Source of the DNA: Tribonema minus
Taxonomy: Eukaryota; Sar; Xanthophyceae; Tribonematales; Tribonemataceae
Reading direction: 5' to 3'
Assembly (NCBI GenBank): GCA_017506865.1
Contig: JAFCMP010000036.1
Location: 124,001-188,000, forward strand
DNA length: 64,000 nt
The position numbers and the translations under genes are program-made. Every line of letters starts with the position of its first letter. Position 1 is the stretch's first letter. The notes below the pieces were generated by a model. The model saw only the letters and a program-made list of their open reading frames with translations. It made no database searches and was not told the DNA's origin. This document shows, piece by piece, positions 1 through 63,998 of this stretch.

Positions 1-1325
1 CCCGTGCGCGCGCGCCAGCTCGAAGGCCTCGTCCGCGCGCTGCGCCATGAGCAGGAACTCGATGGCGCCGCCCCAGTCGCCGGCGGCGGCGCAGTAGCGC
101 GAGACCGTCTCCGCGCCCGCGGCGCTCGCGGTCGCGCGCACGATCGCGAAGGCGCGCTCCGGCTGCGGTGGCGGCGGCGCAGCGGCGCGGCGGCATGGCG
201 GCGAGTATGTGTGAGAGGAGCACGTGCGACGCGCAGCAGCGGGGGGGCGGCGGCGCACACCGGGCGAGCTGCAGTGAGGGTTTGATGAGAGAAGGTTGGT
301 GCTGCTGCAGCGGTTACGGTTTCCGGCAAGCTTGCAATGTTTGCTGGCTGCTGCTGCTGCTGCGTGCAGGCGTCGAGCAAGCCGCACACTCGAAGTGCAG
401 CATGCGCTGCTGCAGCAGGGTGGCTGCTGACAAAGGAGTAGAGGGGGCGTCGCGTGACGAGCTCGCTGGTACCGCGTGCTTCAAACTTTTATCTCGCCAT
501 TACACAAACCAGAGCGGGAGTGCCATGCGCTGCGATGCTCGCCAGAGACGCGCAGTAAAGCGGGGAGGCGAGAGTCACCTGGTCCAGTTGGTCGAGGCAC
601 AGGCGCACGACGGCGTCCATGTCGCGTGCGCGCTCGTGCGCCGCCGCGGCCGCGTCCCACTGGCCCGCCGCCTCGCACGCGCGCGCGTACTGCCCCAGCA
701 GCTTGGGCAGCGTCACCTGCGCGGAACGAGGGAGGAGAGGGGGGAGGAGGCGGGGGGGGGTTGCTGAGGTTAGAACGGGGCCGTTGTGCTTGGCAAAACG
801 TGAATGCTAGGGGAGGAAAGGGGGCATGGGGGGGGTTGAAGGAGGAGCGTTGTGATCGGTGAGATGCGAATGCTCGGCACTGAGCACTGCTGTCCCCATG
901 GCCGCCAGCCTGGCGGCGACTGGCGCCTGACACTGTCCAATTCCGCGATGATGCGCAGAGGGCGGTGATGCGCGGCCATGACTCGACACATAACACGCAG
1001 CGCGGCTGCAGCGCTCAGCGCAGAACAGGCAGGGCCCCCCTCTGCCCGCGCGCAAAACAGGCACCAATATCGCCAAAACACCGAGCAGCAGCGAAGGCCC
1101 CCCCGTCACACTCATGCGCAAGCGGGGGGCGGGGGGGGCGGCGTGCACAGCGCGTCGCACCTTCGGCGCCACCGACGCGGCCTGCGGCATGTTGCGCGCC
1201 GCCAGGTAGATGGCGAGCGCCCTCTCGAAGTGGCCGCTCGCCTCCCACAGCGCCGCCGCCTCCGCGGGCTGGCGCATGTCCTCCAGTATCGCCGCGCACT
1301 CGCGCAGCAGCCGCACGCCGTAGCT

Positions 1326-1381
<56 letters not shown>

Positions 1382-1391
1382 TGCCGCCACT

Positions 1392-1423
<32 letters not shown>

Positions 1424-4400
1424 CGCTGTCTGCTGCTGCCCGCGCCAGCGCGACGCCGCGCCGCACGTCGCCGAGCCGCAGCGTGCAGCGCGCAACACCG
1501 GCGGCGCAGGTGGCGCGCAGCTGCGCGGCGGCGGCAGCGGCGCTGCTGCCAGTGGCGGCGGCGGCGGCGGCGGCGCCGTCGCCGAGGCCCGCGAGCGCCT
1601 GCTGGAACATGCGCAGCGCCGTGTCGCTCTCGCCGCGGAACTCGAGCTGCTGCGCATATGCCGCGCTGATCTGCCTCGTGGCCGCAGAAGAGGGGGGGGG
1701 GGGGGGAGGGCATGGTCAATTGCGCCTGCGCGTCGGCGGCGGCGGCAGCGGCGCGGCAGCGCCTCAGGCGCCAATCTTGCATCAATTGTTGGCATCTGTG
1801 GGCATTGGTCGTTGAGTCGCGTTCGTGGACCAAAGGCGTGCTGGCTCTGGTCATGTTCCCTTACGGTGAGGGCTAGCTTTGAAGGTAGTACTAGATGAGG
1901 CAAGCACACTGCTCAGACACAAGCAGACTTCACACAATAGACAACTCTGACAATCGGGTGGCATCCGCTCGAACACTTCGGGTTATAGTTAGGATCAGGG
2001 CCAGAGTTGGGGTCAGGGCTAGGGGCAGGTCAGGGCCGACCGCAAGTAGTACACCACCACCAACGTTCACACAACGCCAATAGCGCAAGCGTCCGCGCCG
2101 CGCACGCGCCCGCACGCGCATCCGCCCCACTGCACCTCAACAAAAGGTTGCAGTCGACAACAACGACGGCGAACGCACCTCCGGCACCGCGCCCGGCCGC
2201 AGCGCCGTCGCGAGCTTGAGCGCCTGCTCCCAGTGCAGCAGGTCGCGCCGCATGTCGAGCGCTGCCAGCGGGCGCGCGCTGCCCAGCATGAGCTCCTGCG
2301 CGAGGCCGTAGTCGCCGAACAGCGCCGCGACCTCGCCTGCGAGCAGGCGCCGGTCCTCCGCCGCCGCCGCGCGCTCGAGGCCGCGCACCTGCGTTGTGGT
2401 GCGACGCACGTTGATCTTTTGCTGAGCACTGCACACGAAGGTAGGTACGTATGAAGCATGTCACATTGGCGACCGCCGCCACGCGCTCGAGGCCGCGCAC
2501 CTGCATCGTGGTGCGACGCGCATTGGTAATGTCTTGCTGAGCGCCACGCAACACAGGGTAGGCACGTATCATGTGCGCTGCGACTGTCGAGCGGTGCTGC
2601 GCTGCAAGGTAGAAACATGTACACAGCGAGTGCAGACATTGCCGTCGAGCGGGTGACTGTCCTCCGCCGCCGCCGGGCGCTCGAGGCCGCTGCAACGCGG
2701 CGCAACGCACATTGATCTTTTGCTGAGCGCAACGCAACAGGGTGGGCATGTATTGTGTGCGCCGCGATTGCTGAGCAGTGCTGCGCTGCAAGGACTGTAC
2801 ATGTACAAAGCGAGTGGGGACCTTCTCGAAAACACGGGCGCCGCCGATCCTCCGCCACTGTCCTGACCCTGATCCTAATCCTCGCCCTAACCCTACTTTT
2901 TACCCTACGCTCGAAGCCGTGCACCGGCATCACGACAGCGCAACGCGCCTCAATTATGAGCAGCGCTGCGCACCCAGGCACCACTGATGGTATTTGTCCG
3001 CGTCATGCTCAATGCAGCCACAGCGTTCATCGCGCCACAACTGCTGAGCACTGTGCATCAGGGTAGGGCAGGCACACGCGACACCGGTGCAGGGGTCTGT
3101 CTGTGCATCAGCGCCTATGCTGCGCAGCAGCTGCTGCAGTCGCGCCGTTGTCGGGCCGTCGCCGCAAACCAGCGTCGCCAAGTCTTCCGCCAGCCGTGCC
3201 CCCCCCCCCCTCCCCCCCTTCGGTCGCCGCGCCATGCTGAAGGTGAGAGTTAGGTTCAGGTTAACCCTAACCCCTAAGAGGCTGCAGAGCCCCACACAAC
3301 AACAAGCAATGCGGCGCCGAATGCAGTGCCTCAAACCCTATCCCTAACCGTCACCCTAAGGTGTTGAGCGCTGCGCTGTCTCACTACGGGTCCGTTAGGC
3401 TGTCTTGCGAGGAGCGCCGGGGAACATCACATCTGCAGCGTGACGCCGCAATCACTGCGCAGGGCGGCTGAGCAGCTTGCGTGCGCACGCCACCGCTGCT
3501 GCTGCTGCGTGCGCTGCCGCCGCCCTCGATCCCACCGCAGCTGCAGATCACTAAAGCAAGTGCAATCGCACTGCACCCGGGGGTCGCCAATGCGCCGCAT
3601 CTCCGCACCAAACCCGAGGCGCGTTGCATCGACAGCAACATGGGCGTGCAGCAGCAGCGCCGCAGCGGCAGCGGCAGCGCTGCAGCGGCCGCGGCGGCAG
3701 CAGCAGCAGAGGCAGCGACAGCGGCAGCAGCAGGAACAGCGGCAGCGGCAGCGGCAGCGGCAGCGGCAGCGGCAGCGGCGGCACTCACCATGCCGGCGTC
3801 GCCGAGGCGGCGGTACACGCGCGCCGCCGCCTCCACCTCGAGCACCTCCATGGCGCGGTTTGCGAGCGCCAGGAGGTGCTGCCGGTCGCCCAGGCGCGCC
3901 GCCGCCGCCCACGCGTCCTGCAGCCGCAGCAGCGCGAGCGCGCCGCACAGCGCGGCGCGCAGCTCGGCGGCGTCCGCGGCGTCGTCCGCCGCCGCCGCCG
4001 CAGCGCCGCCGCTGCCGCCGCCGCCGCCGCCCACGAGCGTGTTGGCGGCGACGAACGGCGCCGCCGTCGCCGCGGTGAGCGTGCCGTCGGCGAGCTGGCA
4101 CGTGACGACGCCTGCGACGCTCGCGACAGGCGCGTGCCCCGGCGGCAGCGGCCACGGCTCCGGCGCAATCAGCAGCGCGCCGTCGCCGTCGACGCGCGCG
4201 GGGCCCAGCTTGACGGCGGCGGCGCCGCGCAGGCCGCGCGGCGGCGCGGCGTAGCAGTGCAGCGCGGCGCCGTCGGAGACGAGGAAGGCGTCGCGGTCCG
4301 CCTGGTCCCACATGGCGTGCTGCGCGGACGGCGGGAAGGCGGGGACGGCGGTGGTCTCGCCTGGGGGGGAGGGGGGTGAGGGGGGGGGAATGGGGGGTTG

Positions 4401-10327: not shown

Positions 10328-10654
10328 GCTGCACCTCCCTCCAGCTCAGCCCAGCGCCAGTACACGCGAGCAGCGATGTGTCAGGGATCCGGATATCTGT
10401 CTATTGGCTGCACTGCTGTTCTCGTGAGCCCGCACACCACAATGAGCACCTGCCAAGGTAGTGCCAATCTGTTATAACTGCTCAACTTTGCAGTCAGTCG
10501 ACATGCTGTTGGTGGCCACAAAGCCTGGTGCTCCGGCTACTAACCACACTTCTTCAATAAATATTTTTTCCGTTTCACCTGCGAACTTCAAATGTTCAGT
10601 TGAAGTTGAGATCCTGGGATCGCAGAGTGAGGTTTCGAGCACTCAGACGGCGGC
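10328..10654. promoter_or_regulatory. Divergent intergenic region between IFT144 and the reductase gene
   Basis: Only 327 bp separate the start codons of two divergently transcribed genes, so both promoters must lie here or overlap the first exons. The centre is locally AT-richer (ttcaataaatattttttccg, about 10553-10572), unlike its surroundings. I did not find a convincing RFX X-box for the ciliary gene. Confidence 0.55.
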
Positions 10655-13600
10655 ATGAGGGCTCATGGAATCCTTGCGCTGATGTCTCTGCCGGGTTGCT
10701 GCTGCTGGCTGTCGGTGATGCTGCTCGGCACGGCATCCGCGTTCCTCACCATGGCGGCGAACACTGCGGCAGCGGGAGCGGCGGGCAAGTCCACGGTGGT
10801 GGTCACGGGTGCTAGCAGGGGTTTCGGGAGGGCGCTGGCGTTGGAGGCTGCTCGCGAGGGCCATCCCGTCATCGGACTAGCCAGGCGGTCAGCGGATCTC
10901 GACAGCTTGGGCAAGGAGGTGCGCGATTCTACATTTCGGCCAGCGCTGAAAGCTCACCTCATGTACTTGTGCTGGCACTGTCAATCAATCACGAAGAGAT
11001 CTGGTTCGCCGCTTCTACTCGTGTAATAGCCGTCACGAAAAGGCGGTCATCGCTGTAGCCACATGGGTTCTCAGAGGTTTCGTCCGTTTGGGCGCACTAC
11101 ACTACGACTCGAATCATTGAGCTGATAGTTTTGCTGCATATCGCTCAGCACTGCTCAGAACCCAAATGGTATGCTGGCGGCACAGCGCACACCATGATTT
11201 GCCGGTGGTCACCTGCAGGAGTTGCAAGGAGCAGTGGTTGTATGCTGTGCCTCGAGACAGAAGCTAGCACGCCTCGAGTGCCGTCTGGAGTGCAATGGCA
11301 ATGGAGTTAATGCAATAAAGCAATGAGCGGGCTGCCTATTGCACTGTATCAATGCCTTTTCAGTTGCCCAAGCATCAGCACAAGCAATCTCCCAGCACCG
11401 TCTTGTTGAAAGCCACAAAGTCCGGACTCCCTCAACACGACTGGGCCTCTCTGCCGTGAAATGATGCATCGCCACATCAGGCACATGACTACCATATCGC
11501 GGAGCAGCCACTCCTTCGATTGCGTTTGCAGCTGACCGCTCCAGAACCCACTCTGCAACGTCACTGGAGTACGTGGCAGACCACAGCGCTGACCGCTGCC
11601 AGCACTCACACATTCAGCCGCAATATATCAAAGCACGGTGCTGCGCCGCCTGTCATGTGCCGCTGCATCTGGCACTGCGACGCTGGGCCCACATCTGTAA
11701 CCCTTTACAGGAGACCTCGCAACATCCCACGCCGCTCTTACCATTGGAAGGCCGGGATGCGCAGAGAGAGGAGTCTCAGAGCAGCCATGCTCAGAGCAGC
11801 CATGCCCTGGCCCCAAGCCGCCCCCAGGCGCCTCGAGCTGGGAAGCACAATTGCTGACACAAAAGAAGCGAGCAACCTTCCGTTCTGTGCGGGCAATAGC
11901 ACTTTTGAGAAGTCACCAGAACTTGCTGGAGAAACCCCTAAAACCGGATCATGCGGTACCCCTTGGGTATGTAGGCACTAAGCTTTCGGCCATCTCATAT
12001 TCCAACACTCCCCTGTCTCGCGTGCCCCCTCGCGCGCCGCGCGACAGCTCGATGTCTGCCCTCGCTCGTGCGTCCTGGAGTGCGACCTCGGGTTCCCACG
12101 TCTGCACGTCTGCCCACGCCCTCACAGGAGGCCTCGCAATATCCCGCGCCATTGCCTCGCCTTTCGCACGCGCCCCTCTCGCAAGACATCAAGTCATCCC
12201 ACGCCATGCCCCCCCCTGTCTCTCGTGCCCTGTCTCTTTCTGGCGCTGCGCGCGACAGCTCGAGGCCTTCCCCGGCTCGTGCGTCCTGGAGTGCGCCCTG
12301 GGAATCCCCGACAGCATGGCGCGCGCGTCGACGCAGATCATATGATGCGCCCTCGACACACCATTCCTCGCCTTTCTCACGCGCCCTCTTGCAAGTCATC
12401 AAGACATCCCACGCCGTTCCCCCTCTTTCTCCCTCTCGCACTGCGCGCAGCTCGAGGCGTTCCCCGGCTCGTGCGTGCTGGAGTGCGACCTCGGGATCCC
12501 CGACAGTATGGCGCGCGCGACGACGCAGATCATGATGCGCACGCGCCACGTCGGCACGCTCGTCCACGCCGCGGGGCGCCTCGGGCCCATCGGCAACCTG
12601 GCCAAGGTGCGAACGAGCGCGACAGCGCTCCGCGGACGTTGGCTGTGAACCGCGCGTGACTGGCGCCGCTGCGTGCGAACGAACACGGCGCTCCCCCCCA
12701 AACGTCGGCTTGGAATCACAAGTGACTCGCGCCGCTGCCGCCGTCAATGCGGCGTGCATCTGGCGGCCGCTGCCGTGGCGGCGGCGGCGGCGGCGGCGCG
12801 TGTCCCTCGTGCATGGCGGGTCCGGGATGGGGGTGCAGTGCAGTTCAAGTGTGGATGTACGATGGCTGCGACGGAGCGGTCATCAGTAAGGCAACTCTGC
12901 CATGATCGGAGTGTCAGGTAGCCACCATCGTCAAACCCTGTGGTTTGACTGGCACGCAACCCCCACTGTGAGCCTGTCTGTGTTGCCAGCACCTGTACCT
13001 TGCATCTCTGTAAAAACTTCTCCATTCAGTAACCGCCTCACCCTTGCTCCCCCCAACCCCACCCCCCCTTCCCCCCATCCCCCCCTCAGTCCACGGCGAG
13101 CAGCTTCAAGGAGGGCCTCGACGTCAACCTCGTCGCCGTGGACTACCTCACGCGCCGCCTGCTGCCGCTGCTCGGCGATCACCGCGCAACGGGCACGCCG
13201 CCGGCGGCGGGCGCCGCGCTGCGCGAGGCGGCGTCGCTGCTGCCGCCGCGCCTCCTGTCGCGCGTGTGCGTCATCAGCTCCGGCGCCGCGCACACGCCCG
13301 TCGCGTCGTGGTCGACGTACTGCGTCGCCAAGGCGGGGCTGCTCATGTGGGCGCGCTGCGCGGCGGTCGGTGAGCGCTGCTGCTTGCGTGCAAGCATACG
13401 TACCGCATGTATGTAGACTAGGTACTCGTGGTCGACGTACTGCGTCGCCAGGGCGGGGCTGCTCACGTGGGCGCGCTGCGCCGCGGTCGGTGAGCGCTGC
13501 TGCTTGTGCGCTTGGTCACGCCATGCGTCGCTGCGCGCGGCGGCGCGCAACCTCACAACAGGCTGCTGCGAATGTACAGGTGCCCGTGGGCCATTGCGCA

Positions 13601-20500: not shown

Positions 20501-23500
20501 AGCGTTGCTGGCACCAGCGGCGACACCATGCAGCCGCCGGCGCTGATGTTGTACGCCGTGGATCCGCTGGGGGTTGCCACTATCAGCCCTGCAATGGAAG
20601 CGGCATAGCGCTAGGGTTAGGGTTTAGGGTCGGGAATAGCGCCGGAGTGCGGCGGGCGTGGCGGCCGAGAGAGGCAAACAGAAAGCAGGAGGCGCGGCAG
20701 CAGGCGGTGACGCGTGGCGGCGATGGCAACGCCGCGCGCGCTCCCCAGTGCGCGCTGCTCGCTGCAGCGTGACTGGCATCGCCGCCGCGAATGCGTGGGC
20801 GTTGCCATCCTCTCTCGACAGGCGCCGCCCCCAGTGAGTCTGTTGCGTGCAGTTGCTTGCAGCGCGCGCGGGAGGCCAGGGAGCGGAAGGGGGGGGGGGG
20901 GCGCCGAGGAGCGCGGGCGTAATAAACGCGCAGTGGACCCTGCGGAAACCGCGCGAGAGACTGCGGCGGTAATCAACATATGCGTTTTGCCGCCCCATTC
21001 AGCTCAGCAGGACCATTGTCGAGGGACTGAGACCGTGTGCGCGCGGCTTTGCCCGTGCTAGCGGTACCGGGCAATGGTGAACGCAGCATGTGGCATCCCT
21101 ACATCAGCGTCGAACTTCACTTCAAAGTAGAAGTATGATACACATGTATGGCGCGCGTGCCGCTCTCGCTGTTGTACGCAACCATTGTCGTGTGACGAGC
21201 ATAGCGAAGACTCCGCTCTTGTCACGTCATATATGAAGCTTGCACACAAAAGTCTTTTGATTGGTGGATACGGTGGTGCTGTTTGACTCGTGGCCAATTG
21301 CTGCTGCAGCGGCGACCACGGTTATTGGTGGAAGGCACTTGCGGCTAACCATCCCTTGCCACCTAGAGCTCCACGATCTTTTGATTCGTTTCCATATGGA
21401 CTGGTCGCACACGCAGTGCAGGGTGAGGGTCAGTGCAGGGTGAGGGTTAGGGTAAGCCACGCCAGCTACCTACGTACCGTCGCACTGAGCGGTGGTGACA
21501 AGCTGGCCGTCCACATACACCTCCAGCGTGCTGAACACAGTTCAGTCACATCAGTTAACTGATGCAACTTAACTGATGTAACTTGCATCAGTTAACTGAT
21601 GTAACTGATTTTTTTGTTTTTTTTTGTTTACATCAGTTAACTATGTAACTGAACTGGGGCTACCACGCTCGAGGCGTATGTGGACAGCCAGCTCGTCGCC
21701 ATGGCACAAGGCGGCGGTACGTAAAAATTGGGTGTAGCTAATCCCAACCCCACCCTGACTCTCGGGCGTGTGTCGACAGCAGCTCGTCGCCACGGCTTAG
21801 GGCGACGGACATAGGTATCTTGGTGTACACCAGATACCTACGTACCGTCGCCCTGAGCCGTGGTGCGTGTACACGCCCTGAGCCGTGGTGACGTGTACAC
21901 CAGATACCTACTTACAGTCGCCCTGAGCCGGGTAACGAGCTGCCGTCCACGTACACCCCCAGCATGCTCACCCAGTGCATGTTAGGGTTAGGGTCAGCTT
22001 AGGGTTAGCCATGCCTGATACCTGCATACCTCGCCTTGAGCGGTGGTGACGTCCACTTACATCTCCAGCGTGCAAACCCAGTGCAAAGTTGGGGCTAGGG
22101 TTAGGTTTAGGGCCAGAATAGGGTTAGCTACGCCCAATACCTACGTACCGTCGCCCTGAGCCGTGGTTACAAGCTGTCCGTCCACGTACACCTCCAGCGT
22201 GCTTCACCCAGTTCAGTTACATCAGTTACACCCAGATACCTACGTACCATCACCCTGAGCCGTGGTGACCAGCTGTCCGTCCACGTACACCTCCAGCGTG
22301 CTCAGCACGCCCGACAGGCCCCTGTTGACGATGAACTCATTGAGCGAGTAGAAGGTGTGCTGCAGCGTGCCCGTCCTGCGCACGGCGCGACAGTTGCGGC
22401 AGCGGATTACAATTAGGGCTAGATTAGGGTCTAGGGTTAGGGTTAGGGTAAGGTAGTGACGGCAGCAGGTTAAAGTAAGGGTTGGGTTAGATTTGGGGTC
22501 GAGTAGTGACGGCGGCGGAGCGCGCGCAGCGATGGGCACGCGCGGCAGCGGCGTCGTTCCGCGTCGGCACGAGCATTGAGACATCAGATAAGGGTTGGGG
22601 TCAGGTTAGATTAAGGGTTGAGTAGTGACGCTGGCGGGTAAAGATTCAAGTAAGGTTGGGGTTGGTGTTGGGTAGTGACAAAAACGGAGCGCGCGCAGCG
22701 ACTCATTAGCACGCACGGCAGCAGCATAGCTCCGCATCGGCACGAGCAGTGAGACGTCAAAAACATGTTCAGGGGAGGGGGGGGGAGAGGGCAGTGAATG
22801 TGGTGTGGGGTCAAAGCGTGCGCTGCTCAATGCAAGACGACCGTGGCGGAGAGCGCACACAGTCCCATGTTGCGTCAGTACGCACGCTCAGTCATCATGC
22901 CAGCCGCGCACAAATGCGGCAGACGTGTGGCATGGCATGTTGAACTCTGCAGTGCTCGACGACGACAATGTGTCGCCAAAGCTGCGCAGCCGCCAGTGGC
23001 AGCCATGCGCGCGGGGGTGCAGACATGCCATCATCCTCTTCCTAACCCTAACCCCAACCCCTGACGCATTCGCGCGCGTCCAACATGCTGCGCAGCGCCA
23101 CAACGCCACCTGCACAGTACGTGCACCTTGTTGGGTTACCCTACCTACCTTGACCCTAAGCCAGGCGCGTGCTACCCCTTACCGTACCCCTGGCGAAACC
23201 CTAACCGCAACTCTAACCCTACACGCACCCGGAGAACACATCGCCTGCCCAAAGCGCGTGCGTAGCGTGCCCGCCATGCGCTCCCCCGCTGCACGCAGGA
23301 ACGCACTCCATCACCCTTACCCCCTGCCCCTAACTTCAACCCTGACCTCACCCCTAGCTTCAACCGGAACCCTGCGACGCACTTGGAGTACACGTCGCCG
23401 CGCAGGCGCGTATGCAGCGTGCATGCCATGGGCTCCTCGTCCGCATTCAGGACGTGGTCGACTGCTCTGGTTGTAACCCTTATTTAAACCCTAGCCCCTA

Positions 23501-24114
23501 GCGTTAACTTCAACCCTTGCCTGACACGCACCGAGTACACCTCGCCGCGCAGGCGCGTGCGCAGCGTGCACGCCATGGGCTCCTCGTCCGCGTGCAGAAC
23601 GCGCTCCATCACCCCATCCCTAACTTCAATGCCTAACTTCAACCCTAACCTACGACGCACCTGGAGTACACGCCGCCGCGCAGGCGCGTGCGCAGCGTTC
23701 TCGCCATGGGCTCCTCGTCCGCGTGCAGGACGCGCTCCATCACCCCATCCCTAACTTCAACACCTAACTTCAACCCTAACCTACGACGCACCTGGAGTAC
23801 ACGTCGCCGCGCAGGCGCGTGCGCAACGTGCACGCCATGGGCTCCTCGTCCGCGTGCAGCACGCGCTCTATCATTGCGCGCGCGTCGCGCATCGAGAACG
23901 GCGCGAGGAACCCCAGCGAGCCGAGCCCCAGCGCGAGCGCGGGCGGTATCGGATGAGCGTCATCGAAGTAGGACGCGGCTTTGAGGGCAGTGCCGTCGCC
24001 GCCCAGCGTCACCATGAAGTCCACCTGCTCGGCGAGGTGGCGCGGGTCGAAGCGTGCGACGTGCGGGAGGAAGCGCTGCGCGGGGTCTGCAAAGGGGGGG
24101 GGGGGGGGGGTTAA

Positions 24115-24147
<33 letters not shown>

Positions 24148-28902: not shown

Positions 28903-31900
28903 ATGTCTCGATCAGCGCTGGAGCGGATCGCTGCACGCAAGCTACAGCACGGCGTGGTGGAGGTGGACCACTCTGCCATCTTCGATGAGGTACAGTTCCA
29001 TCGGCTCTTGATCCTGTGTAGGGGCGCTCGTGAATCCCTCTCGACGTCATACATTTAGAACATTTGAATCAAAAAACTGCCGCTGCAGCATTCCGGAAGT
29101 GACGCATGACATCAACGAGAGCGGCAGAACGCCGCCAGCTATCAAGTCTCGTTGCGCTATCCTGGGCATGATGTGATAGTGCAGTGGGGGTCGCAGCAGC
29201 ATCATCCACGACGCACTGATTCGGACAGATGTCAGTTGCCTTGTGGTGCAAATTGATCTGTAGCACGTGCCAGTTGCTGCCTGCTACCAATGTGCGCCAT
29301 TTCTTGTGACATCATGATGCATTCTTACGCTGCCGTGCGCAGGCTGATCAGCTCGCAGAGGGCAGAGAGGTCAAATCCAATGAGCTGCCGATGCACGGAA
29401 ACACAACGTGAGTGAGCTCGAGCTCGCTTTTTTGTTTTCATTGTCAGCTGTTGCACCGCATTGCCGTGCACCCAACCTTCTGGAATATGGTGCCTGCGAG
29501 TGGTCATCTCGTGTATGATACTGCCTACTTCGTACACGGCGATGGTGATGCTCGTCAGCGCTCAGCCTGACTGCTACAAACACGTCACGTGTCAACAAAG
29601 GGACACAGATCGCACCACAAAGACAGCACATGCGGATGGGAGCAACGTCAACTCGCGTTTGCCACATGGTTGCAGGCGGTAAAGTCCATGGTGACAACGA
29701 TCAGCAGAGACACTCTAAGTGGTCATTGGGAGCGTCACTACTGCACCTGAGACCGCTGCAAGACGACAAATCTTCACGCCACATGTATGCCTCATGGTAC
29801 TCTGTTTTGCACAAGCGCGCGACTGTAAGCGCACGAGTCACTTACTGCAGCAAGCGCAAAACACGCTTGTCATGATGGTCAAATCGTGCCTGGCGCGGAC
29901 GCGGCAGCAAACAGTGTGTGTGTAAGGCATGCTGATCACCGCCACATGGCTCAGCAAGACACAGCAGCGCTGCCCGAAGTCGCCATTTGTTGCTGCTTCG
30001 AGTTCGTCGCTCGTGCCATCATTGACATGCACCGCTTGCTGTGCTGCCACACTGCCTGAAGCCTCCATTGATGCTGCTTCCAGTGCCTAGCTGTTGACGT
30101 GCGTCTCTTGCTGTGCCGCTGCCCACACCAGGACGTACAACCTCAACCCGATGCTCTGCCAGACGATCGTCAGCAGCGACTACTTCAAGTCGCTTTACGA
30201 GACGAACAGCTTCCTGGAGGTCGTGGACGAGATATATGAGCGGTGAGCGCTGCCACATGGACGTCTTTTACCTACATGAGAGATGCCAGCACCCACAAAC
30301 CCTTCATTCGCGCCCAGTCATATATGAAATCGAATCAAAAGATCGTAGAGCTCTAGGTAGGTAACAAGGGATGGATAGCCGCAAGTGCCTTCCACCAATG
30401 ACCGTGGTCGCCGCTGCTGCAGCAATTGATCTCGAGTCAAACAGTACCACCATATCCACAGTAGTGAAAAAGACTTCCGTGTGCAAGCTTTTAGCATTTG
30501 AGGAGAACGTGCTTGAAGTTTCAAAACAAAAAAAACAACTTGCACCAAAAAGATCAGCATTAATCTCAGTGCTGAACGGCCCTGAAAGTGATGCTCAGCA
30601 TCGAGGGCATGCTGCAACAGACTGCGCTGCGCTCCGTTGACGTGCGCTGTCGCGTCAGTGGCGCCGGCGGAGCAGCGGTGGTTTAGGGTTAGGTTAGGTT
30701 TAACCCCAACCCTAACGCTAAACCCTAACCCTAACCCAAGACCCGTTGCCACTCCAGCAATGCAATGGAGGGGTGAGGGGCAACTTGGCAGTCGTATACG
30801 TAGAACTGCGCAGAGTACACTCCTGTTGAGGTACGGTTGTGTTAAAGTACGATCCCCGTCCTTCATCCCTTCAACAGCCCCTCCCGCTGCTCGCGCACAG
30901 TGCACAGCCGCGCTGCGCTTGGCCGGGCGCCCGGCGCGTGGCGCACGCAAGCGCGCTGGTGCGGCTTCCATTTGCAGCATGAGCAGACTCTCTGCAGGCA
31001 GTGCGTGATGACAGGCGCACGGCGTGTGCAGCTCTGAGCGGCGCCCTGCTCTGCATGTGTACACACTATACACATCGTGTACGCTATGCGTACCACAGCA
31101 ACGCGCAATTAGAACACGTAATGTCGCGTTGAAGCAAACACCTGATGCTCCCCACCACAAACGCTCACGCTGGTGCAGCGACTCGGGCGAGGCGCCATTG
31201 AGACTTGGACACACGTGCACCCGACCCCCCCCCGCCCCCTATACCCCCCCTCCTTCCTTTGTGCGGGCTCTCCCGCAGGTGTTCGCACTTCGTGCACCCG
31301 CCCATGACCTCACCTGCCCCTTACTCTCCTCCCCCCCCCCCCCCCCGGCACGGCCCCCGTTAGTGCCCGCACGTGGGCCACAGGCAGGGCAACAGCTCTT
31401 GCACCTACTGATGCCCCCCCCCCCTCTCCCCCCTCCGTGCACTCCTCCCCCCGCAGGTGCTCGCACGTCGCGCCGTGGGCCGCCGGCACGTGCAATGGCG
31501 CTTACCCCCTATACCTACCTACCCTCTTGCTCCCGCCCACCCACCCCGCCCCCCCCCCTCCCCCATGCGGTGCCCCCCCCCGCAGGTGCTCGCACGTCGC
31601 GCCATGGGCCGCAGGCACGAGCCGCATCCCGTCGTCCGCGTTCTGCCTGCTCATGAAGCTGTTTGTGATGCGCGTCACGCGCAAGCAGATGGTCGCGCTG
31701 CTCGAGCACAAGGACTCGCCGTACATCCGCGCGGTTGGCCTCCTGTACCTGCGCTACACGTGCCCGCCGAAGGAGCTGTGGGCGTGGTACGAGCCGTACC
31801 TAGACGACGCGGAGGAGGTGAGGAGAGTCACCTTCAACACGTTACTTCAACAGTACATGATGAGTGTTGCGTTGCAGTGTAGAGAGCTGCTGCTGCTGAC

Positions 31901-34252
31901 CAGCCCGTCGCTCGGCACCGTCGGAAGAAGACATCGAGGAGACCAACGCAACAGAGAGGCGATGCCAGTCGTGTGCTGCTGGAAGTGAGTGTACTGGGAT
32001 CTGTCTGTGTACCCGTAAGTGCGACTGCTGTGACCGTCGAGCGTGCAAACGGCAGCGAGCATACAACTGCCAAATGCTCCAACAGTCAGCGACAAGCCTT
32101 TGCGCTAGCGTGCGGTGCTCAACTCGGTCAGGGCGCGAGGCGCCCTCCGCCGCCGCGCGCGTCCGCCGCTGTGACGTCGCTGCGCGCCTGACGCCAGCCT
32201 CTCCGTCATCGCGTCCCTTGCTGCTACACGCACGCGCGCACGCACGCAGCAGGGCGCCCCGCCACCGCCGCGCTGCCGACAGAGCGCCCCCCCCCCTCTC
32301 CCCTCTTGCGCGACCTGCCTGAGCTCTGCCCGCCGTCACTGGAGGGCTTGCTGCCAATGATAGCGCCCCCCCCCCCTGTCCCCCCCCCTTCCCTCTGTGC
32401 GACCGTTCTGAGGTCTGCCGCCATCGCTGACGCGCTGCGCCCCCCCCCCCCCCCCCCCCCTTTGTGTCCTCACAGATAAAGCCAAGCCCGGAGGCGCCGA
32501 CCATGATTGTGGGCGAGTACATCGTCAAGCTCATCAAGGAGATGCAGGTGCGACAGGAGGCAGCGGCAGCGCTGCGCGCGCTGCGTGCGCTGCGGCGGCG
32601 GCAGCGGCGGCGGCAGTGCCTGCGGCGCGCCCCGTCCAGATAAGCACCGGCAAGCGCCGCGCGCGCCTGGCATCGCGCATTGCTGCGTGCTGCGCTCGCG
32701 CGTTGTCGTGTCTTGCGCCGCGTTGTCCGGTTGACCGCTGTGGTACGGTTGTGGCAGTTACGGCAGTTACGGCAGTTGCTGCGGTTACAGACGGGGGGCC
32801 CCACGCCGCGCACTGGCGCCGCATCCGCAACCTGTCGTCGACATCCAGTGTTGGCCCATTATTGTTTCGTCACCAACGGTATGATTGATGTCGCCTGCAT
32901 GCGTGCGCCAAGACTTTGCTGATCCCCCTCCCCGCCCCCCCCCCTTCAACCCCCGCGTGCAGTACTATGGCACCATGCTGCCGCGCATCCCCGTGCCGAT
33001 AGAGCGCAAGATGAAGGTGCACCTGCTGCTGCACCAGGAGAAGAAGAAGCGCGCCGCCGCCAACCAGGCCATCAAGGACAGGTGCGACACAGAGGCAAGC
33101 ACACGCGCGTACGCTCACGAATGCTCACAGTTGGAACGAGACGCGTGAAACAAGTACGAGTACTGTACGAGTACGGGGACGACAATTGTGTACGAGTACG
33201 AGTACTGTCAGGCCATCAAGGACAGGTGCGGCACAGAGGCAACGACGTGAGTGCACGCTCACGAACAACACTCACACACGCGCACGCACACAGAGTGCTT
33301 GCGCGCCGAGGCACGCTAATGAACGCTTGCACTCGCGCGCGCCCACAGAGCGCTTGCGCCCCGAGGCAAGCACGCGCGCACGCTCACGAACACTCACACA
33401 CGCGCACGCACACAGAGGAAGTGCGTGCGTGATCAGGTGATCTATCGCGTGCGCTGTTTGTCCAGACGCGAGACAGGGGCAGGCACGCATACAGACGACC
33501 ACACTTACACAGTGCCTATAAACCGCACACACTAGTTGCAAGCGCTCATATGATGCAGTCTGCGCGTCTCTGCCCATCCAGCCTCCATGCGGCTGCCGTT
33601 ACACTTGCACGATTGCATCGCGGTGGCGGCGATGGCCGTCACAGCGGCTGACAGACACAGCAGGCGTACAGGCCTGCCTTGTGTCATTTCTATCTGAGGC
33701 CGACGATAATCACTGCATCTTGTGTCCGCCGCATGCGCATCGCAACACAACGCGTGCGTACGCGCCGCAGTCCCCCGCCGCGGCTCTTGACGCTGAGCTA
33801 CCGCGACCGCCGCTGCTGCCGCGTGCCGCTGAAAACTGCCGAAATCCCCTGCCCCAGCTGCTGACGCTGAGCTATGGCCGCCACCGCCGCTGCCGCTGCT
33901 GCCATTCGCCGCTGATCACTGCTGCTGCCGCACCATAACCCACCGCCCCCGGGTTCCGCGCTGAGCCGCCACTACCGCCGCCGCCGCTGCTGCATCTCGC
34001 CGCTGCTGCGCGCCGATCTCCGCTCCCGATGCTGAGCCACCGCCGCCGCCGCTGCTGCCGCTCGCCGCTGCTGCAGCCGCTGCCATTCGCCGCTGATCAC
34101 TGCTGCTGTACGCCAAAATCCCGCCCCCGTCTCCTGGCGCTGAGCTACCGCCGCCGCCGCCGCTGCCTCTTGCCGCACCGACATCACCGCTCCTGACGCT
34201 GAGCTACCGACGCCACCGCCGCCGCCGCCGCTGCTGCCATTCGCTGCTGATC

Positions 34253-40334: not shown

Positions 40335-40990
40335 CACCCCGCCCCCCACATCACCCCCAACAAAGCACCCGCAAGCGACTGTCCCCCACATACTAGCAGG
40401 GATACTGAACAAAGCTACAAGACTCTCCCCCCACAGACAGACCCGTCTTAGGGCCACCCAGCTCCACGCAGACTCCATCTCAGAGTTTTCATGCAGGCCA
40501 AGGTCACCATAATGGGCCCTGAACTGGAGATTGTGGCTATCTACGTGAACCCCGATATCATAAAGATAAGCAGAGGGAGTCACTGGGCGCCAGGCGCTGA
40601 CGCTAGAAAGAAAGGCTATATAACTAAGCAAAGCATCGCCTCCTTGATGGGCGAGACGGTGGTTCACCGGGCCCCCCATATCACCCCAAACAAAGCATCC
40701 GCAAGCGACTGTCCCCCACACACTAGCAGGGATACCAAACAAAGCTGCAAGACTCTCTCCCCACAGACAGACCCGTCTTAGGGCCACCCAGCTCCACGCA
40801 GACTCCATCTCAAAGTTTTCATGCAGGCCAAGGTCACCATAATGGGCCCTGAACTGGAGATTGTGGCTATCTTCGTGAACCCCGATATCATAGAGACAAG
40901 CAGAGGGAGTCACTGGGCGCCAGGCGCTGACGCTAGAGAGAAAGGCTATATAACTAAGTAAAGCATCGCCTCCTTGATGAGCGAGGTCAC
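40335..40990. repeat. Tandem duplication of a 330-bp unit
   Basis: Two head-to-tail copies (about 40335-40660 and 40667-40990) are roughly 95% identical by eye; gggccacccagctccacgca occurs at 40451 and again at 40781, exactly 330 bp apart. Because 330 is 110 codons, frames stay open through both copies on the minus strand (293-codon frame, 40245-41126). On the plus strand a shorter frame includes PELEIVAIYVNP, vaguely like a retroelement endonuclease strand. I do not claim a protein. Confidence 0.85.
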
Positions 40991-44544: not shown

Positions 44545-45373
44545 GCTGGTGCTGGTGCTGCTAGCCGGTGGTGGTGATGCTGTGCGCTGCCGCTGGCGGA
44601 ATGGGTTGCTGCTCGCTCTACAATGAAAGTGAGGTACCGTAGTGTGCTTACGGGATTCCACACACTGCCCGGCGAAAGGAATTTACACTCAACCTCAACT
44701 CGGTTTTTCAGCCATCATTTTTTTGTCCCGTTCGGCCACCTTTTGGCAAAGGCCCCCAAAGGTCACCAAAAATCCCGATGGAGTAGTTGTACAACGGCCA
44801 AGGGTGAGGGGGGATACCATGTGCTGCACTGCAGCGCATCAGCAGCATTTGCGTGCGCGACTCACACTCAGGCCCGCCAAAAAGTCAGATTGAAATTGAT
44901 CTGGACGATGGGATCGGCAGCGAGTTTTTAAGCCGAACGCTGATAAACGCTTGAACAGGCCATTCTCGGAAGCACCTTCAGTGGAAGCACACAGCGCCGG
45001 CCATGGGTGGGGGTGCTGCAGTGCCTCAGGCTGTTGTGCATTGGATCATGAGCATCAGCAGGTGGTCTTCCATTGAATGTTCCCAAGGATTCCAGCACCC
45101 GCATAGCCGCATGAAGTTGGCGTTATTTTTGGATTACCGCGTTGAACTTTTGATCCACTTTACTCCCGTGCACCGCGCCAAGTCTCTCCACCCATCGTGA
45201 CAACCCCGTTCCGTTCGTGTTCGTGGAGCAGACAATCTTCAACTGTCGGTGGCTACCGCTGCGGCGCATGTTGGCTGTCTGCGTGTTCAGTTGACATCTT
45301 TTCAGCATGGTTCATTTTTCATTTCATGGAGAAGTGCTAGTTTGCGCGAGGAGAAGTGCCACAGTAGCAGCAC
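44545..45373 (+). repeat. Left terminal inverted repeat
   Basis: Starts near ctggtgctggtgctgctagc and ends near cgaggagaagtgccacagta. It pairs with the reverse complement of the right arm about the axis near 46249. The left arm has a 12-bp extra segment (atttttcatttc) near 45316. Confidence 0.87.
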
Positions 45374-47137: not shown

Positions 47138-47957
47138 GCTGCATACTGTGGCACTTCTCCTCGCGCAAACTAGCACTTCTCCATGAACCATGCTGAAAAG
47201 ATGTCAACTGAACACGCAGACAGCCAACATGCGCCGCAGCAGTAGCCGCCGACAGTTGAAGATTGTCTGCTCCACGAATACGAACGGAACGGGGCTGTCA
47301 CGATGGGTGGAGAGACTTGGCGCGGTGCACGGGAGTAAAGTGGATCAAAAGGTCAACGCGGTAATCCAAAAATAACGCCAACTTCATGCGGCTATGCGGG
47401 TGCTGGAATCCTTGGGAACATTCAATGGAAGACCACATGCTGATGCTCATGATCCAATGCACAACAGCCTGAGGCACTGCAGCACCCCCACCCATGGCCG
47501 GCGCTGTGTGCTTCCACTGAAGGTGCTTCCGAGAATGGCCTGTTCAAGCGTTTATCAGCGTTCGGCTTAAAAACTCGCTGCCGATCCCATCGTCCAGATC
47601 AATTTCAATCTGACTTTTTGGCGGGCCTGAGTGTGAGTCGCGCACGCAAATGCTGCTGATGCGCTGCAGTGCAGCACATGGTATCCCCCCTCACCCTTGG
47701 CCGTTGTACAACTACTCCATCGGGATTTTTGGTGACCTTTGGGGGCCTTTGCCAAAAGGTGGCCGAACGGGACAAAAAAATGATGGCTGAAGAACCGAGT
47801 TGAGGTTGAGTGTAAATTCCTTTCGCCGGGCAGTGTGTGGAATCCCGTGAGCACACTACGGTACCTCACTTTCACTGTAGAGCGAGCAGCAACCCATCCC
47901 GCCAGCGGCAGCGCGCAGCATTACCACCACCGGCTAGCAGCACCAGCACCAGTAGCA
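47138..47957 (-). repeat. Right terminal inverted repeat
   Basis: Reverse-complement partner of 44545-45373. It ends near gctagcagcaccagcaccag, after which a CAG repeat follows in the flanking DNA. Scattered single-base differences separate the arms. Confidence 0.87.
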
Positions 47958-48841
47958 GCAGCAGCAGCAGCGACGGCGCAGGTCTACAGTAAATTACGGC
48001 CAACACAGAATTCGTCTGCATCACGGCTAACCCGCAATTCGTCTTCATAAGTCAGCCTTACACGTTGGGCAACGGCCAGTGCACCATTGCAAATGAGCCC
48101 TTCGTCGTACTGATGCCAGGCAGGGGCGAGTCCGCGAAACCTGCCCTCGTATGCCAACTAGCAAAGCACTGCTTGATGCTGTATTGAGGCTTGTGATCAT
48201 TTGAGACCCAGCCACATTGCGTACAAGCTCCGTGAGTGCTGGACGCTGTGCCTTGTGGCCGTGGCGGGAACGCAACACGCCAAGCAGCACAGGCGTCCGC
48301 ACCGCGCCTTGCGTGTCTGCAGAGGGGTTGGTGGCCTCTCGTTTGCGAGGGAATTCCTCCTTGAAGTTGAAGTTGAAGTATCAGCGCGTAACCGACGTGG
48401 CAGTAGGGTGCTGCTGCCGCTCGCGTGTCGAGCTGGCTGCATAAAGGTCTTCGATGCAAATTAGAGGAGTATGAGTGATGTCACCACCACAAGAAGGAGG
48501 GAGTACCGGTAAGTCAGCACTGCGAGCATCTACAGAAAATGCACCTGTGATCGGGGCAATTGCGGCTGGGCTCGCGGCATGGAACCTGTGTGCTCTGCTC
48601 CGTTCTTATTTCGTCAAGGTCAAGGCAAAGGTGACGACGGTTGCATTCATCTAGGGAGAGAGGACGCGAGCAAGCACTGTCACTGTTGGATATCTAGCAT
48701 GAGCACTCAACTTGAGGTTTACTCGCGAGCTGTGACTTCGGCGTAGCAGCGCAGCCACCAGCGTGCCACTGTGACGCAGACGTCGCTGCTGAGTGCACAA
48801 TGCGACATAAACACAGTTAACAGTACGAGTGGTCGTCATGC
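47958..48841. other. Region upstream of the LRRC9-like gene
   Basis: About 0.9 kb between the mobile element and the LRRC9-like start codon. I see a short (CAG)n run at its left edge, a gaagttgaagttgaagt triplet at about 48364, and no coding similarity. It presumably holds the promoter of the plus-strand gene. Confidence 0.45.
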
Positions 48842-50636: not shown

Positions 50637-50672
<36 letters not shown>

Positions 50673-59600: not shown

Positions 59601-62600
59601 ATTGGGTGAGTGTGGTGCGGCAGTGCGACGCGGCGACAGAGTGCGGAGCGATGCTGCTCGGCCGTTACGGCGTTTGAGTCCTGAGGGGGGAAGTGGGGAG
59701 GGGGGGGGGCTGTGCGTAGGCGTTGTCATGCTGCAGCCGGTGGAGGTGCGCTGCAAAGATGTGTTATGTTGCATGCGTGGGGCTGCGACGGCTGCAGCAG
59801 CTGGACATTGGGTGAGTGAGGCACGGGGGCGTAACGTGGAACCGCGTGGAGCAATGCTGCTCGGCCGTTGCAGGTCTGGGTCCTGAGGGTTGTGTGTGTG
59901 AGGGGGGGGGGGGGGGGGGGGCTGTGCGCAGGCTTTCCAATGCTGCAGCTAGTAGAGTTGTGCAGCAAAAATGTGTTCAGTCGCCTGCGCACATTTGCGC
60001 TGATGGTCTTGGACATCCTTCATGCGCACCGTCAGGTGCAAGCAAAGCGGGCCGTCTACAGCGTTGTGTCCCGCTGACCGGCACTCGGCACTCTTACCCC
60101 AACCCTAGACCCGATGCCAATGATTACCCCAAGGCAGGCAGTCCAAACCCTAGTTATGATCTCACCCACCCAAACTTGTGCCGCTGTGCTGAACGCCTGG
60201 ATTTCTGCGCTGAACACTCATACTGAGCGCAGATTCCGATTAGGTTGCAGCGGTGAAGCACTTCATCGTTCAAATCGCAGTGTACTGCTCACGTAGAAGA
60301 GATGATCATATGGCGAGCGCTGATACTGTCAGTGCAGTCATCGCCCCCCCGACAAGCTGCATGTGCTGCCGCTGCGGTATTCTCACAACTCTCACCCTTG
60401 CCCTCACCCTACTTGGATACTGCCCTCCCCGCGCAGGTACAACGACCTGCAGGATGAAGATGTGACGTGCCTCTCCGACCTTGCAGAGCTGACGCTGCTG
60501 TGCGTGGAAGGCAACAGGCAAGTGCTCGGAGCGACCACACACAGAAGTATACAACTAGTTTAGATGTTTGTTGAAACGCATGCCAGGGTGGACGCGTGTG
60601 CTTGCGTAATGGCGAGAGGTGGGGGGTGGGCGCGCGGTGGATTGAGTTTGCTCGCACACAGTATGCGAATAGGTGGACAGGGGAGGCATGCTGCTGCGCT
60701 GCATGTAGACACCATGCCTTAACTTTCTATCCAACACTTCAAAGGATCAAGCATGTTCTGTACGAGTATGTGTGCCCTGCACACAGGGTATGTATGTGGT
60801 GAGTAAGTGCATGGGTGGCAACCGACGAGGTGCTCGACGTCCGCTCGCACTTCGAATGCTGCGTCAGCGGAGTTTGAGGATGCGTGGCGGGTGGAGAGGA
60901 GCTTCAAATGCTCTTGGTCGAACATGTCTTGACTTCCAACGGCTGATGGTACAAGTCCAAGTTGCAGTTGCATTCTATCCGAGCTGCCACTTTGTTCAAA
61001 AAGTTTGTGTGATCTGATTTGTCGATGCTGCGTCAGCGGAGTGTGAGGACGCGTGGCAAGTGAAAAGGAACGGTATACACTCTTGGTCAAGCATTTGTCC
61101 TGGACTTCCAAATGGAGGTGGTGCAAGTTCAAGTTGCAGTTGCATCTGCTTCCGAGCTTCCCCTTTTACCCTGGCTGTGATAAAGTTTTGTGTCATATGA
61201 TTCCCCAATGCTGCCCCCTGCTGCAGGCTCACGTCGCTGGCGCCGATGTCGCCGCTGCACGCGCTGCTGCAGCTGTATGTGGTGAGTGCGCACTTCTGTT
61301 TGCACTTGCCTGATGTGACCCTTGTCTACACCTGCCAGCTCGAGCAAGCATTTTGCTGTGCTAGCCCTCAGGCGGCAACAGTGTTCGGGACGTCCATTCC
61401 TCTGGTGTGGCCGTTCGTGTGAACCCCCCCCTAAAACGAACTGCCTGCCCATCAACTTCAAGTTTGCAATCACTTAAGTTCAAAAGTGTATGGCATACTG
61501 TACCCTGCATGGCACCAGCAGCACCCATGTCGTTTGCATCGCACAGGATGGGGAACAGGCCTGAAGAGTGTGAAGTTTTTGAGAAGAGTCTGGGATAGGC
61601 AGCAGCATGTGCATCACTCCTTGCTTGGCACACACCAGCGAGACTAGGCACACAGCTGTAGCACAGTTCTAGCTGGTAGTTAGGTAGGCACATTGCAGTC
61701 ATCGAAAGCTCAAATCTGCATTTCGCAGGTGAAGATTCTTCGGAGAGCTGTTGACCGCTGTTGACCTCGAGCCCTCCCAGCAACACGGCCCGGAGCGATG
61801 CAGCAAACGTCTGCGGCGCTAAAGCATACATTCATGCATCCATCCGTTGATCAATCCATTCATTCACTCAATCATTTGAACTCATTCATTTATTCATCCA
61901 TTCATCCATTCATTCCTCAATTCATTCATTCATTCATTCATGAATTTGCGCAGGACAGCGCGCCGTCGTGAGTGAACTGGACCAGTTGCGTCCTCCGCCG
62001 CAGCTCACCCCAACCGCACGCTCAAGTCGATGCGACAACAAAGTAAATTGAACCTAAACAATCTCGATGTTATGCATGCTGCGCCGCGCGACAGGGCAAC
62101 AACTGCCTGCGCGACGGGCGCGAGCTGGACCGCCTGCGCGCGCTGCCACGCCTCGCCATACTGGACACGGGCGGCAACGCGCTGGCGCAGCGGCGCGCGC
62201 ACCGCGCACAGGCACTATTTGCGCTGCCCTCGCTCAAGGTGCGCAACGGCAGCGCGGCAGTGCGGCGCCGCGCCCCATCGTCCATGTTGTTGTTGTTGCA
62301 CTTGCCCTCGCGCATCATATTGAATTGAATTCCGCTACTGCAGGCGCAACAACGCGCGCACCGCGCGCAGGCACTCTTCGCACTGCCCTCGCTCAAGGTG
62401 CGCGACGGCAGCGCTGCCTTAGGGTTAGGGTTAGCGGTTTGCGGCGCCGCGCTTCATCATCGGTGTTGTCGTCAATGCACGTACTGCCCTTGCGCATTGC
62501 AGTGGAGCGACTTTTGCTGCTGCAGGCGCTGCGCGCGTGCACTTGCGAGGCTCGGCACATGAACGTTTTCCACACAGCGCTGCGCTTTCTGCGTACCAGC

Positions 62601-63998
62601 ACGAGGTGGACACAGGGTAAGGGTTATAGATAGGGTTAGTATTACGGCTACAGGTAAATTACATTTGTCAGAGTTTCGCTTTGTTAGTGCACAACAACAG
62701 ACTAGGTTGGACTTGAAGCTGGTGCACGTTCCTCGGTGGCCAAGCGCTGCTGACGCCTAGATGCCAAGCCGTGCTGCATGTCACTGCGCCCTGCTGTTGC
62801 AACACAGACAGTGGCGCGTACAAAAACAGCCGATTGCAGATTCATCATAGGTACTTCCGAAGTGCACGCGTGCATGTGGTGGGGGTGCGGCACAGAGTAA
62901 AGCGGAACCTGGCTTCGCCTCTGACGCGCATGTACCTCAGTACGACACTCGTCCTGTTGCAGCAACTGCACTCGCGGTACATGTGGCAGCGCGACAACGC
63001 CGGGCAGACAGGCCCTTGTAAGTGCCTGCATAGATATTATGTGTACTTGAAGTAAGTACTTCTATATGACCAATTTTGTGCATGTATGCGTGTGGCAGGT
63101 GCTTGACGGACTAGGCGTTGGCGCGGGGGAGACGGATGCCGCACGGCAGCAGCTCGAGGGTGCTCTGACGGAGGACGCGCTGGCAACTGCTGTGGGACAC
63201 CGCGACCTGAACTCGCTCACAAGTCTGAGTCTCGATCAGGTAGTGCATTCATGAATCCACCAAGGGCGGTACAGCAGGGTGCCGTGGCCTGCATTTTTGC
63301 GCACGAGTCTGAGTTTCATCAGGTATAGGGTTAGGTTTAGGGTTAACTCGAGGGCGCGCTGATGAAGGACATGTCGTCGTGCCGACGACCGCCGTTGGGC
63401 ACCGCGACCTGAACTTGCTCACGAGTCTGAGTCTCGATCAGGTAATGCGTGCACCAATTCACGGAGGGCACTGATTGGGGCGCCGTGGCCTGAAATCGCT
63501 CATGAGCCTGAATTTTCATGAGGCATATGCATTCATGAATCTGTGAATTCATGAGTTCACGGATGACATGAATTGGGGCACTGCGACTGAGCTAGCTCAC
63601 CAGTCGGAGTCTGGATCGGGCATGCGTGTATGAACAATAATGACCGTTTGCATCTCGCGTTAAAGAATGTGGTATCGCTTGCACAATGCGCGGTACCGCG
63701 CTAACTAACCCTGACCCTGGCCTGGTGCTCCCGGCCCTACCGCCAGACTGCGTCTCGAGTGATTATGCGCCGAGAACCATGACATTTCCCATTTGAATGC
63801 ATGCTTCAGTGTTTTGACAATGTTTGCTTTGCCGAAGAGGATCTGACCGACAGGATCGCATCTAACTGGGCCACGGACATTGCACAAGATAGCATGGACA
63901 TTGAGCGGGTACAGAAAGCTGGCACCGATGAGGGTTAGGCGAGGGTTAGGATCGAGGCTAGTGACACGTAAGGGACACTTCAAGCATGAAGAAGCCAC
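48842..63998 (+). CDS. LRRC9: LRRC9-like leucine-rich-repeat protein, 3' end outside the window
   Basis: Large LRR protein resembling vertebrate LRRC9, which has SDS22-type repeats and is linked to ciliated cells. Well-supported exons: 48842-49152, 49599-49785, 50828-50995, 51885-52118, 56856-57007, 57953-58390, 59103-59605, 60437-60517, 61227-61281, 62095-62238, 63099-63239. Probable: 52695-52964, 54950-55658, 56199-56346. Weak: 54797-54832, 55924-55956. One or more exons between 52965 and 54796 are unresolved. The first LRR block includes LHTLDLSGNKL and LRALWLCRNRLSAIS. The conserved NPVC motif (DNPVCSRPHY) precedes a helical part. The linker has DVHLTRVVRIQ and LVTPEYLVEY as in LRRC9. A second LRR block follows, ending in LDGLGVGAGETDAARQQLEG. 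Two introns use GC donors (55659, 60518). The first in-frame Met, 48842, follows a stop at 48818. No gene end is visible. Confidence 0.87.
50488..50670 (+). repeat. (CGGCGGCAG)n and (CAG)n array in an LRRC9-like intron
   Basis: About 16 perfect units of the 9-mer CGGCGGCAG are followed by about ten CAG triplets. The array lies in the intron between the exons ending at 49785 and beginning at 50828. Confidence 0.95.
51397..51526 (+). repeat. Interstitial telomere-type array (GGGTTA)n
   Basis: About 20 units of GGGTTA with a few variants (GGGTTAA, GGGTTGG, GGATTA) span 130 bp. It lies inside the LRRC9-like gene, between exons 3 and 4, so it is not a chromosome end. Confidence 0.92.
51665..51732 (+). 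repeat. Copy of the LRRC9-like exon 4 start
   Basis: The true exon 4 starts at 51885 (acgtacgccatcggccacct). A diverged copy (acgtacgccatcaaccacct, then ggaacaactggaggcgctt) lies 220 bp upstream at about 51676, also preceded by a C-rich tract. Confidence 0.87.
52190..52400 (+). repeat. Decayed copies of the LRRC9-like exon 4 end
   Basis: The true exon end (52076-52118, gctgagcgctgccgctcgcg, then aggcgcgcttggtcaacaag) is echoed at about 52228-52275 (tgagcgctgctgctcgcgag, then gcgcgcggcggtcaaggt) and, more weakly, near 52330-52400. The flanking intron segment (gagcgtgt(a/c)atgagcgctgcggt) is also duplicated. Confidence 0.75.
59700..59960 (+). repeat. Copy of the LRRC9-like exon ending at 59605
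   Basis: Bases 59780-59820 repeat the exon end and donor (gctgcagcagctggacattg, then ggtgagtg; true copy at 59586-59612). The following intron (gtg(g)aacc...gagcgatgctgctcggccgtt) is also duplicated, ending in a G run. The unit is about 220 bp. Confidence 0.88.
60855..61205 (+). repeat. Tandem duplication in an LRRC9-like intron
   Basis: Two diverged units of about 170-180 bp begin near tgctgcgtcagcggagt (60858 and 61027). They share tgaggacgcgtgg-type, ctcttggtc(g/a)a(a/g)cat, ggacttcca and caagttgcagttgcat segments. No coding similarity is seen. Confidence 0.78.
61829..61950 (+). repeat. Tetranucleotide (CATT)n-type microsatellite
   Basis: Degenerate CATT/CATC/AATT repeats (cattcattcattcattcatg near the end) span about 120 bp in an LRRC9-like intron. 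The composition is distinctly AT-rich. Confidence 0.85.
62341..62413 (+). repeat. Copy of the LRRC9-like exon ending at 62238
   Basis: The segment cgcaccgcgcgcaggcactc, then ttcgcactgccctcgctcaa and ggtgcgc, repeats the last 45 or so bases of the exon and its donor (true copy ending 62238). It lies 160 bp downstream and is preceded by its own ctgcag. Only a few bases differ. Confidence 0.92.
63280..63625 (+). repeat. Copies of the LRRC9-like exon ending at 63239
   Basis: The exon end (caccgcgacctgaactcgct, then cacaagtctgagtctcgatc and ag) recurs near 63285-63325, 63343-63441 (longest, with the ctcgagg(g/t)(c/t)gc part of the exon), 63480-63522 and 63575-63622, progressively decayed. Each is followed by cattcatgaat-like intron sequence. 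Confidence 0.9.

Follow-up and report, generated by a model that had tools for sequence, protein, structure and literature searches.

Recurrent tandem duplications across exon-intron boundaries in genes of Tribonema minus and their probable part in intron lengthening

Introns of Tribonema minus (Xanthophyceae) contain, in many of its genes, direct copies of their own exon-intron boundaries, in which an exon end, the splice site, and the adjoining intron are repeated as one unit. These copies were analyzed in a window of 64,000 nt (contig JAFCMP010000036.1, positions 124,001-188,000) and in a sample of genes from the remainder of the 158-Mb genome (554 contigs), where the pattern proved to be real, widespread, and not universal. 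It is probably explained by recurrent local tandem duplication that is hidden by splicing and has an approximately twofold preference for exon-intron boundaries. Directly observed are the repeat arrays, their orientation, the decay of free copies next to a preserved exon, the neutrality of spare splice sites, and a boundary excess of about twofold over a passive model of duplication.

Junction copies in the window

Copies composed of exon, splice site, and intron occur at 8 junctions of 5 gene loci in the window (WDR19, a short-chain dehydrogenase, NAD kinase, PRP38, and an LRR-like gene), which bears out a sequence-only reading of the same DNA; one of the two PRP38 junctions is assigned to that gene by inference. 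The orientation proposed there was also recovered, with copies 3' of true donors and 5' of true acceptors at all 8 junctions in all five loci. The gene extents given in the following are approximate.

The NAD kinase gene (within ~17.5-27.4 kb, minus strand) carries copies at two donors. Its true donor 1, located by sequence and the NAD_kinase domain at 23791..23792 (exon end 23792, intron start 23791), is included in an array at 23505..23873 for which Tandem Repeats Finder (TRF) reports ~2.8 copies of a 131-bp unit, consisting of ~75 bp of exon end, the donor, and ~55 bp of intron. Donor-1 copies on the minus strand are found at 23632..23720 (96% identity, with the copied donor at 23661/23660), 23505..23589 (92%), 23353..23442 (90%), and 23200..23284 (85%). 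True donor 2 (22247..22248, minus strand) is followed downstream by 5 direct copies at 22126..22203 (92%), 22014..22073 (87%), 21896..21970 (89%), 21826..21865 (a short copy, 95%), and 21462..21537 (87%), and in addition by 2 inverted copies on the plus strand at 21765..21827 (81%) and 21664..21742 (77%). Since inverted and direct copies share this intron, simple slippage cannot have been the sole event. The inverted signal of the window is also raised at 18-19 and 25-26 kb.

The remaining junctions show the same geometry with fewer copies, each on the strand of its gene. In the short-chain dehydrogenase (adh_short domain, ~10.6-15.6 kb, plus strand), the true acceptor (12450..12451) is preceded by copies at 12230..12318 (87%) and 12027..12097 (84%), and the donor (13369..13370) is followed by one at 13430..13511 (94%). 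PRP38 (from ~31 kb, plus strand, recognized by its PRP38 domain) has an acceptor at 31585..31586 with a copy at 31428..31493 (86%); the donor of a downstream exon (33081..33082, plus strand), presumably of the same gene, has a copy at 33209..33242 (97% over 34 bp). Two copies, at 2473..2525 (91%) and 2635..2719 (81%), accompany the acceptor of WDR19/IFT144 at 2388..2389 (~0.4-9.1 kb, minus strand), and a single one at 62340..62417 (87%) follows the donor at 62238..62239 of the LRR-like gene (~48.7-63 kb, plus strand), whose LRR_4 match lies under the curated cut-off. The KH-domain gene at ~44 kb had been described as free of such copies, and its surroundings (42-45 kb) are indeed almost devoid of repeats, the fractions of repeat windows being 0.00, 0.06, and 0.00.

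Splice sites inside the copies, the two inverted copies, and telomere-like CCCTAA/TTAGGG motifs among the copies would suit an introner or other mobile element acting through splice sites, a process considered in the sequence-only reading. However, the NAD kinase array (461 bp), the sole array searched, matches its own locus only in the 158-Mb genome (with a search that skips very common words) and lends no support to mobility. Such an origin is considered highly improbable; the repeats counted in the intron sample are within-gene copies by construction. Introners shape introns genome-wide in protists and form families shared among genes. The likeness to the present case lies in the shaping of protist introns, whereas the one array queried in this analysis occurs at its own locus alone. 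The telomere-like motifs, which stand between some of the copies, reach 0.4-2.3 per kb in four of the window's five gene regions, the exception being that of PRP38 with 0; in the putative intergenic parts of the window they amount to 0 in 4/5 and 2.2 per kb in the fifth. Across the 97 introns of the gene sample, their density is 0.72 per kb, compared with 0.49 in shuffled sequence and 0.05 in exons.

Frequency and distribution outside the window

The gene sample comprises 20 of ~40 kinesin loci and 8 of ~10 chaperonin loci, grouped from family exon matches. Introns were modeled by a purpose-written profile-to-DNA aligner permitting GT/GC-AG boundaries; 11 of the 108 introns obtained had odd splice sites and were dropped, leaving 97. 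All of these models are predicted, and they are backed by splice consensus and by the codon pattern of the copies. A direct repeat crosses the donor or the acceptor in 35/97 introns (donor 21, acceptor 21), distributed over 14/28 genes. The other 62 introns harbor no junction-spanning repeat and 14 genes lack any, hence the claim that every multi-exon gene is affected fails outside the window. Junction repeats are found in 1/20 introns shorter than 400 bp, 7/26 of 400-600 bp, 11/26 of 600-900 bp, and 16/25 of at least 900 bp. Among genes, no junction duplication is present in the 23 kept introns of the chaperonin genes L065 (0/10), L059, and L060, and all introns of L062 (6/6) and most of L061 (4/6) carry one; a gene effect past intron length is not significant (p = 0.10).

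The arrays consist of head-to-tail direct repeats, as do minisatellites, whose units measure ~10-100+ bp. Here, the period is 51-342 bp in young pairs of neighboring copies, and some arrays contain at least three copies. The tandem arrangement ascribed to the copies is upheld by the 131-bp array of NAD kinase, not by the inverted copies at its second donor, nor by intron 3 of locus L053, where the best copy (96%) lies ~450 nt into the intron, past a 92% copy; adjacency is thus not constant. The age gradient described for the window does not reappear in the sample either: in 42 donor pairs, identity shows no significant correlation with how far the copy lies from the exon (Spearman -0.11, p = 0.49).

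The introns might be taken for relics of their own birth by duplication of an exon segment bearing AGGT. This route is known: in PMC4974935, a segment crossing an intron-exon boundary of potato RdRp is duplicated and a new intron is created, and intron gain is reviewed in PMC3443670. In the introns tested here, donor and acceptor contexts are unlike and not mutual copies, in contrast to ATP2A1 and potato RdRp; mean register-locked identity is 0.255 vs 0.251 for mismatched pairs, with 2/95 above the 99th percentile, and local alignment places 1/95 above the 99.5th percentile. AGGT duplication as a source of recent introns is therefore contradicted for most introns examined and, as an account of the arrays, is extremely improbable; it could hold for old introns past recognition.

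Preference for the exon-intron boundary

The distribution of copies was profiled in 77 introns of at least 400 bp by asking how many 50-nt windows recur as a direct copy at another place in the same intron. The fraction of such windows is 0.39 at donors and 0.33 at acceptors, ranges from 0.18 to 0.34 in the interior (~0.25), and falls to 0.08 and 0.06 at 75 nt into the exon and to zero at 150 nt. Inverted copies account for 0.00-0.03 of the same profile, and a reversed-sequence control likewise matches 0.00-0.03 of windows.

Much of this profile is what a purely passive process would leave, one in which tandem duplications occur at random, those in introns or at junctions survive, and the preserved exon prolongs recognizability, with no bias toward boundaries. 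The near-flat copy density of the intron interior and the zero value by 150 nt into the exon conform to it, as does the exon part of the copies, which decays about half as fast as the intron part and makes junction repeats easier to detect. A simulation of this process therefore combined random duplication with varied deletion, small indels, and weak homology-driven growth, and two biases in favor of junctions were built in: exons hardly decay, and duplications crossing an edge are tolerated. Even so, the passive model leaves the edges poorer than the interior, because every event puts the new copy inside.

Three comparisons depart from this expectation. Among repeat families, 44/73 touch a junction (0.60, gene bootstrap 0.45-0.73), as opposed to simulated fractions of 0.27-0.39 in nine settings; the simulated values were no higher when arrays were allowed weak homology-driven growth (0.27-0.35). 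An intron-only edge statistic, computed from the stretch between 6 and 66 nt inside either end of the intron and thus free of exon anchoring, yields 0.264 for donors, 0.329 for acceptors, and 0.233 for the interior, a ratio of 1.27; the passive edge/interior ratio has means of 0.57-0.77 in four settings, and at most 0.001 of resamples reach 1.27. The values 75 nt into the exon are ~0.2 of the junction value, vs ~0.3-0.7 in the simulations. With this evidence, a purely passive origin is unlikely, though it deserves more credit than the other alternatives weighed here.

An earlier complexity filter, which lost long multi-copy hits such as that of L051 intron 2, had given 42/76, or 0.57 of 74, in place of the corrected 44/73; the same filter is behind the count of 35/97, the intron-length classes, and part of the simulated settings. 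A uniform-placement expectation (8.8 junction families vs the 42/76 observed) was set aside in favor of the simulations, because it takes no account of the longer time over which exon-anchored repeats stay detectable and relies on shortened alignments.

Decay of the copies and neutrality of spare splice sites

Mismatch between exons and their copies is 0.090 at the first, 0.084 at the second, and 0.153 at the third codon position. Where the exon and intron parts are both of sufficient length (65 copies), mismatch averages 0.100 in the exon part and 0.219 in the intron part, the latter being higher in 57/65. This pattern is what an exon under selection and an unconstrained inner copy would predict: copy-only changes should be the fewest, copy plus silent exon changes more numerous, and changes on both sides the most numerous, and the data match this order.

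An assembly artefact could be suspected from intron 2 of L051, where a 177-bp donor-spanning unit is repeated with zero differences. For the bulk of the copies, the mean exon-part divergence of 0.10 and a codon-position pattern that no assembler could make reduce the probability of this explanation to a negligible level.

The copied splice sites themselves are often intact, with GT in 24/33 donor copies and AG in 37/45 acceptor copies, and the sequence-only reading had regarded decoy splice sites as a possible effect. If such spare sites were kept by selection, e.g. to aid intron recognition or to suppress premature polyadenylation, they should outlast their surroundings. Instead, copied GT retains 59/66 bases vs 507/561 for the copied exon (Fisher p = 0.83) and copied AG 82/90 vs 659/752 (Fisher p = 0.39), and 62/97 introns manage without copies. 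The copied sites decay neutrally, at the rate of the copied exon and without selection for or against them, and selected decoys are very unlikely.

Duplications away from introns

Copy density was compared among introns (0.255 of 2,694 windows), tRNA flanks (0.133 of 959, taken from 8 of 60 tRNA matches), and putative intergenic parts of the 64,000-nt window (0.012 of 431). The intergenic value suggested that duplication is restricted to introns, a notion weakened by the arrays in tRNA flanks. At L067:1501-1928, a ~134-bp unit that starts within a tRNA-Gln gene is repeated ~3 times beside it, and the intact tRNA gene bounds the array on its outer side. This is the geometry of the junction arrays with another functional anchor, an agreement that favors the passive component of the explanation. 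A search for Pfam domains in the three tRNA loci with high duplication gave none. A long imperfect palindrome with an AT-rich center is located near a tRNA-Val gene at L074:2023-3072.

Further repeats of the window include a 330-bp tandem duplication (93-95% identity) at 40341-40985, outside recognized genes, and two near-identical, inverted frames of 81 codons, ~2.3 kb apart (44955-45197 and 47301-47543), which possibly represent mobile-element ends. Light-harvesting proteins gave 92 exon matches in the genome, as fits a photosynthetic eukaryote.

Discussion

The reading we prefer, and consider probable, is that local tandem duplications recur, favor exon-intron boundaries, and are concealed by splicing. 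Short local tandem duplications would recur within intron-bearing genes. One that crosses a splice boundary would leave the protein unchanged, because the outermost intact site is presumably used and the extra copy is spliced out with the intron. Selection would then keep the outer exon copy, and the inner copy and its spare splice site would decay as neutral intron. Repeated rounds would produce minisatellite-like arrays, so that the intron gains length at its edges and grows inward, and some array growth may proceed by unequal exchange. The boundary excess may reflect a mutational bias, e.g. breaks, nicks, or polymerase slippage near the boundaries of transcribed genes.

Several points weigh against this reading. 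The splice sites are predictions from genomic sequence, and 29/73 repeat families lie clear of any junction. Bootstrapped by gene, the edge/interior ratio for the 0..50-nt edge spans 0.92-1.46, a range that runs into the upper tail (1.07) of the passive setting most favorable to it. The simulations are only roughly matched to the data, with 0.32-0.86 of introns containing any repeat vs 0.49 observed, and array growth was simulated at weak strength only. High duplication at 3/8 tRNA loci indicates that the process is not intron-specific, and no molecular cause of the boundary bias was observed. The boundary preference is consequently concluded to be moderate, about twofold, and does not amount to an exclusive junction mechanism. 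The proposal that junction-centered duplication lengthens introns is thereby supported in its core, by the excess over the passive model, and reduced in its reach. Likewise, the comparison of junction overlaps with a random-placement null that had been put forward with it, carried out here on the 28-gene sample, favors junctions within the limits of that rough match.

Paired nicks or the repair of double-strand breaks yield short local tandem duplications, and the copies described here resemble their products in being short tandem duplications of local sequence. To our knowledge, no splice-boundary bias has been attributed to these processes. Minisatellites resemble the arrays in that their units, tens to hundreds of bases long, are joined head to tail and have diverged to varied degrees; here, the outermost unit contains a splice site and coding sequence, and boundaries are favored beyond the passive model. 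Closest in kind are ATP2A1 and potato RdRp, likewise short genic tandem duplications masked by splicing (PMC4974935). There, a new intron results, whereas here introns that already exist are lengthened; this happens at donors and acceptors alike, more than once, and across many genes. The literature thus already contains one duplication that crosses a junction. Among the literature matches listed, no title or abstract opening presents repeated duplication of junctions as a general way in which introns lengthen; this is weak evidence for novelty, with most subscription papers outside its scope.

More tentatively, boundaries could be hot spots of tandem duplication through transcription, splicing, or chromatin. 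Introns might then stutter longer from their edges, and the spliceosome might have to sort the true site from near-perfect spares. A duplication preference at boundaries would link mutation to exon-intron structure. If the pattern holds genome-wide, it would offer a datable, stepwise record of intron growth, which is rarely visible, with each array serving as its own clock because selection preserves the exon but not the copy. Many introns would then harbor spare donors or acceptors that adjoin tens of bases of genuine exon sequence and are seemingly neutral, and would thus constitute a natural test of splice-site choice.

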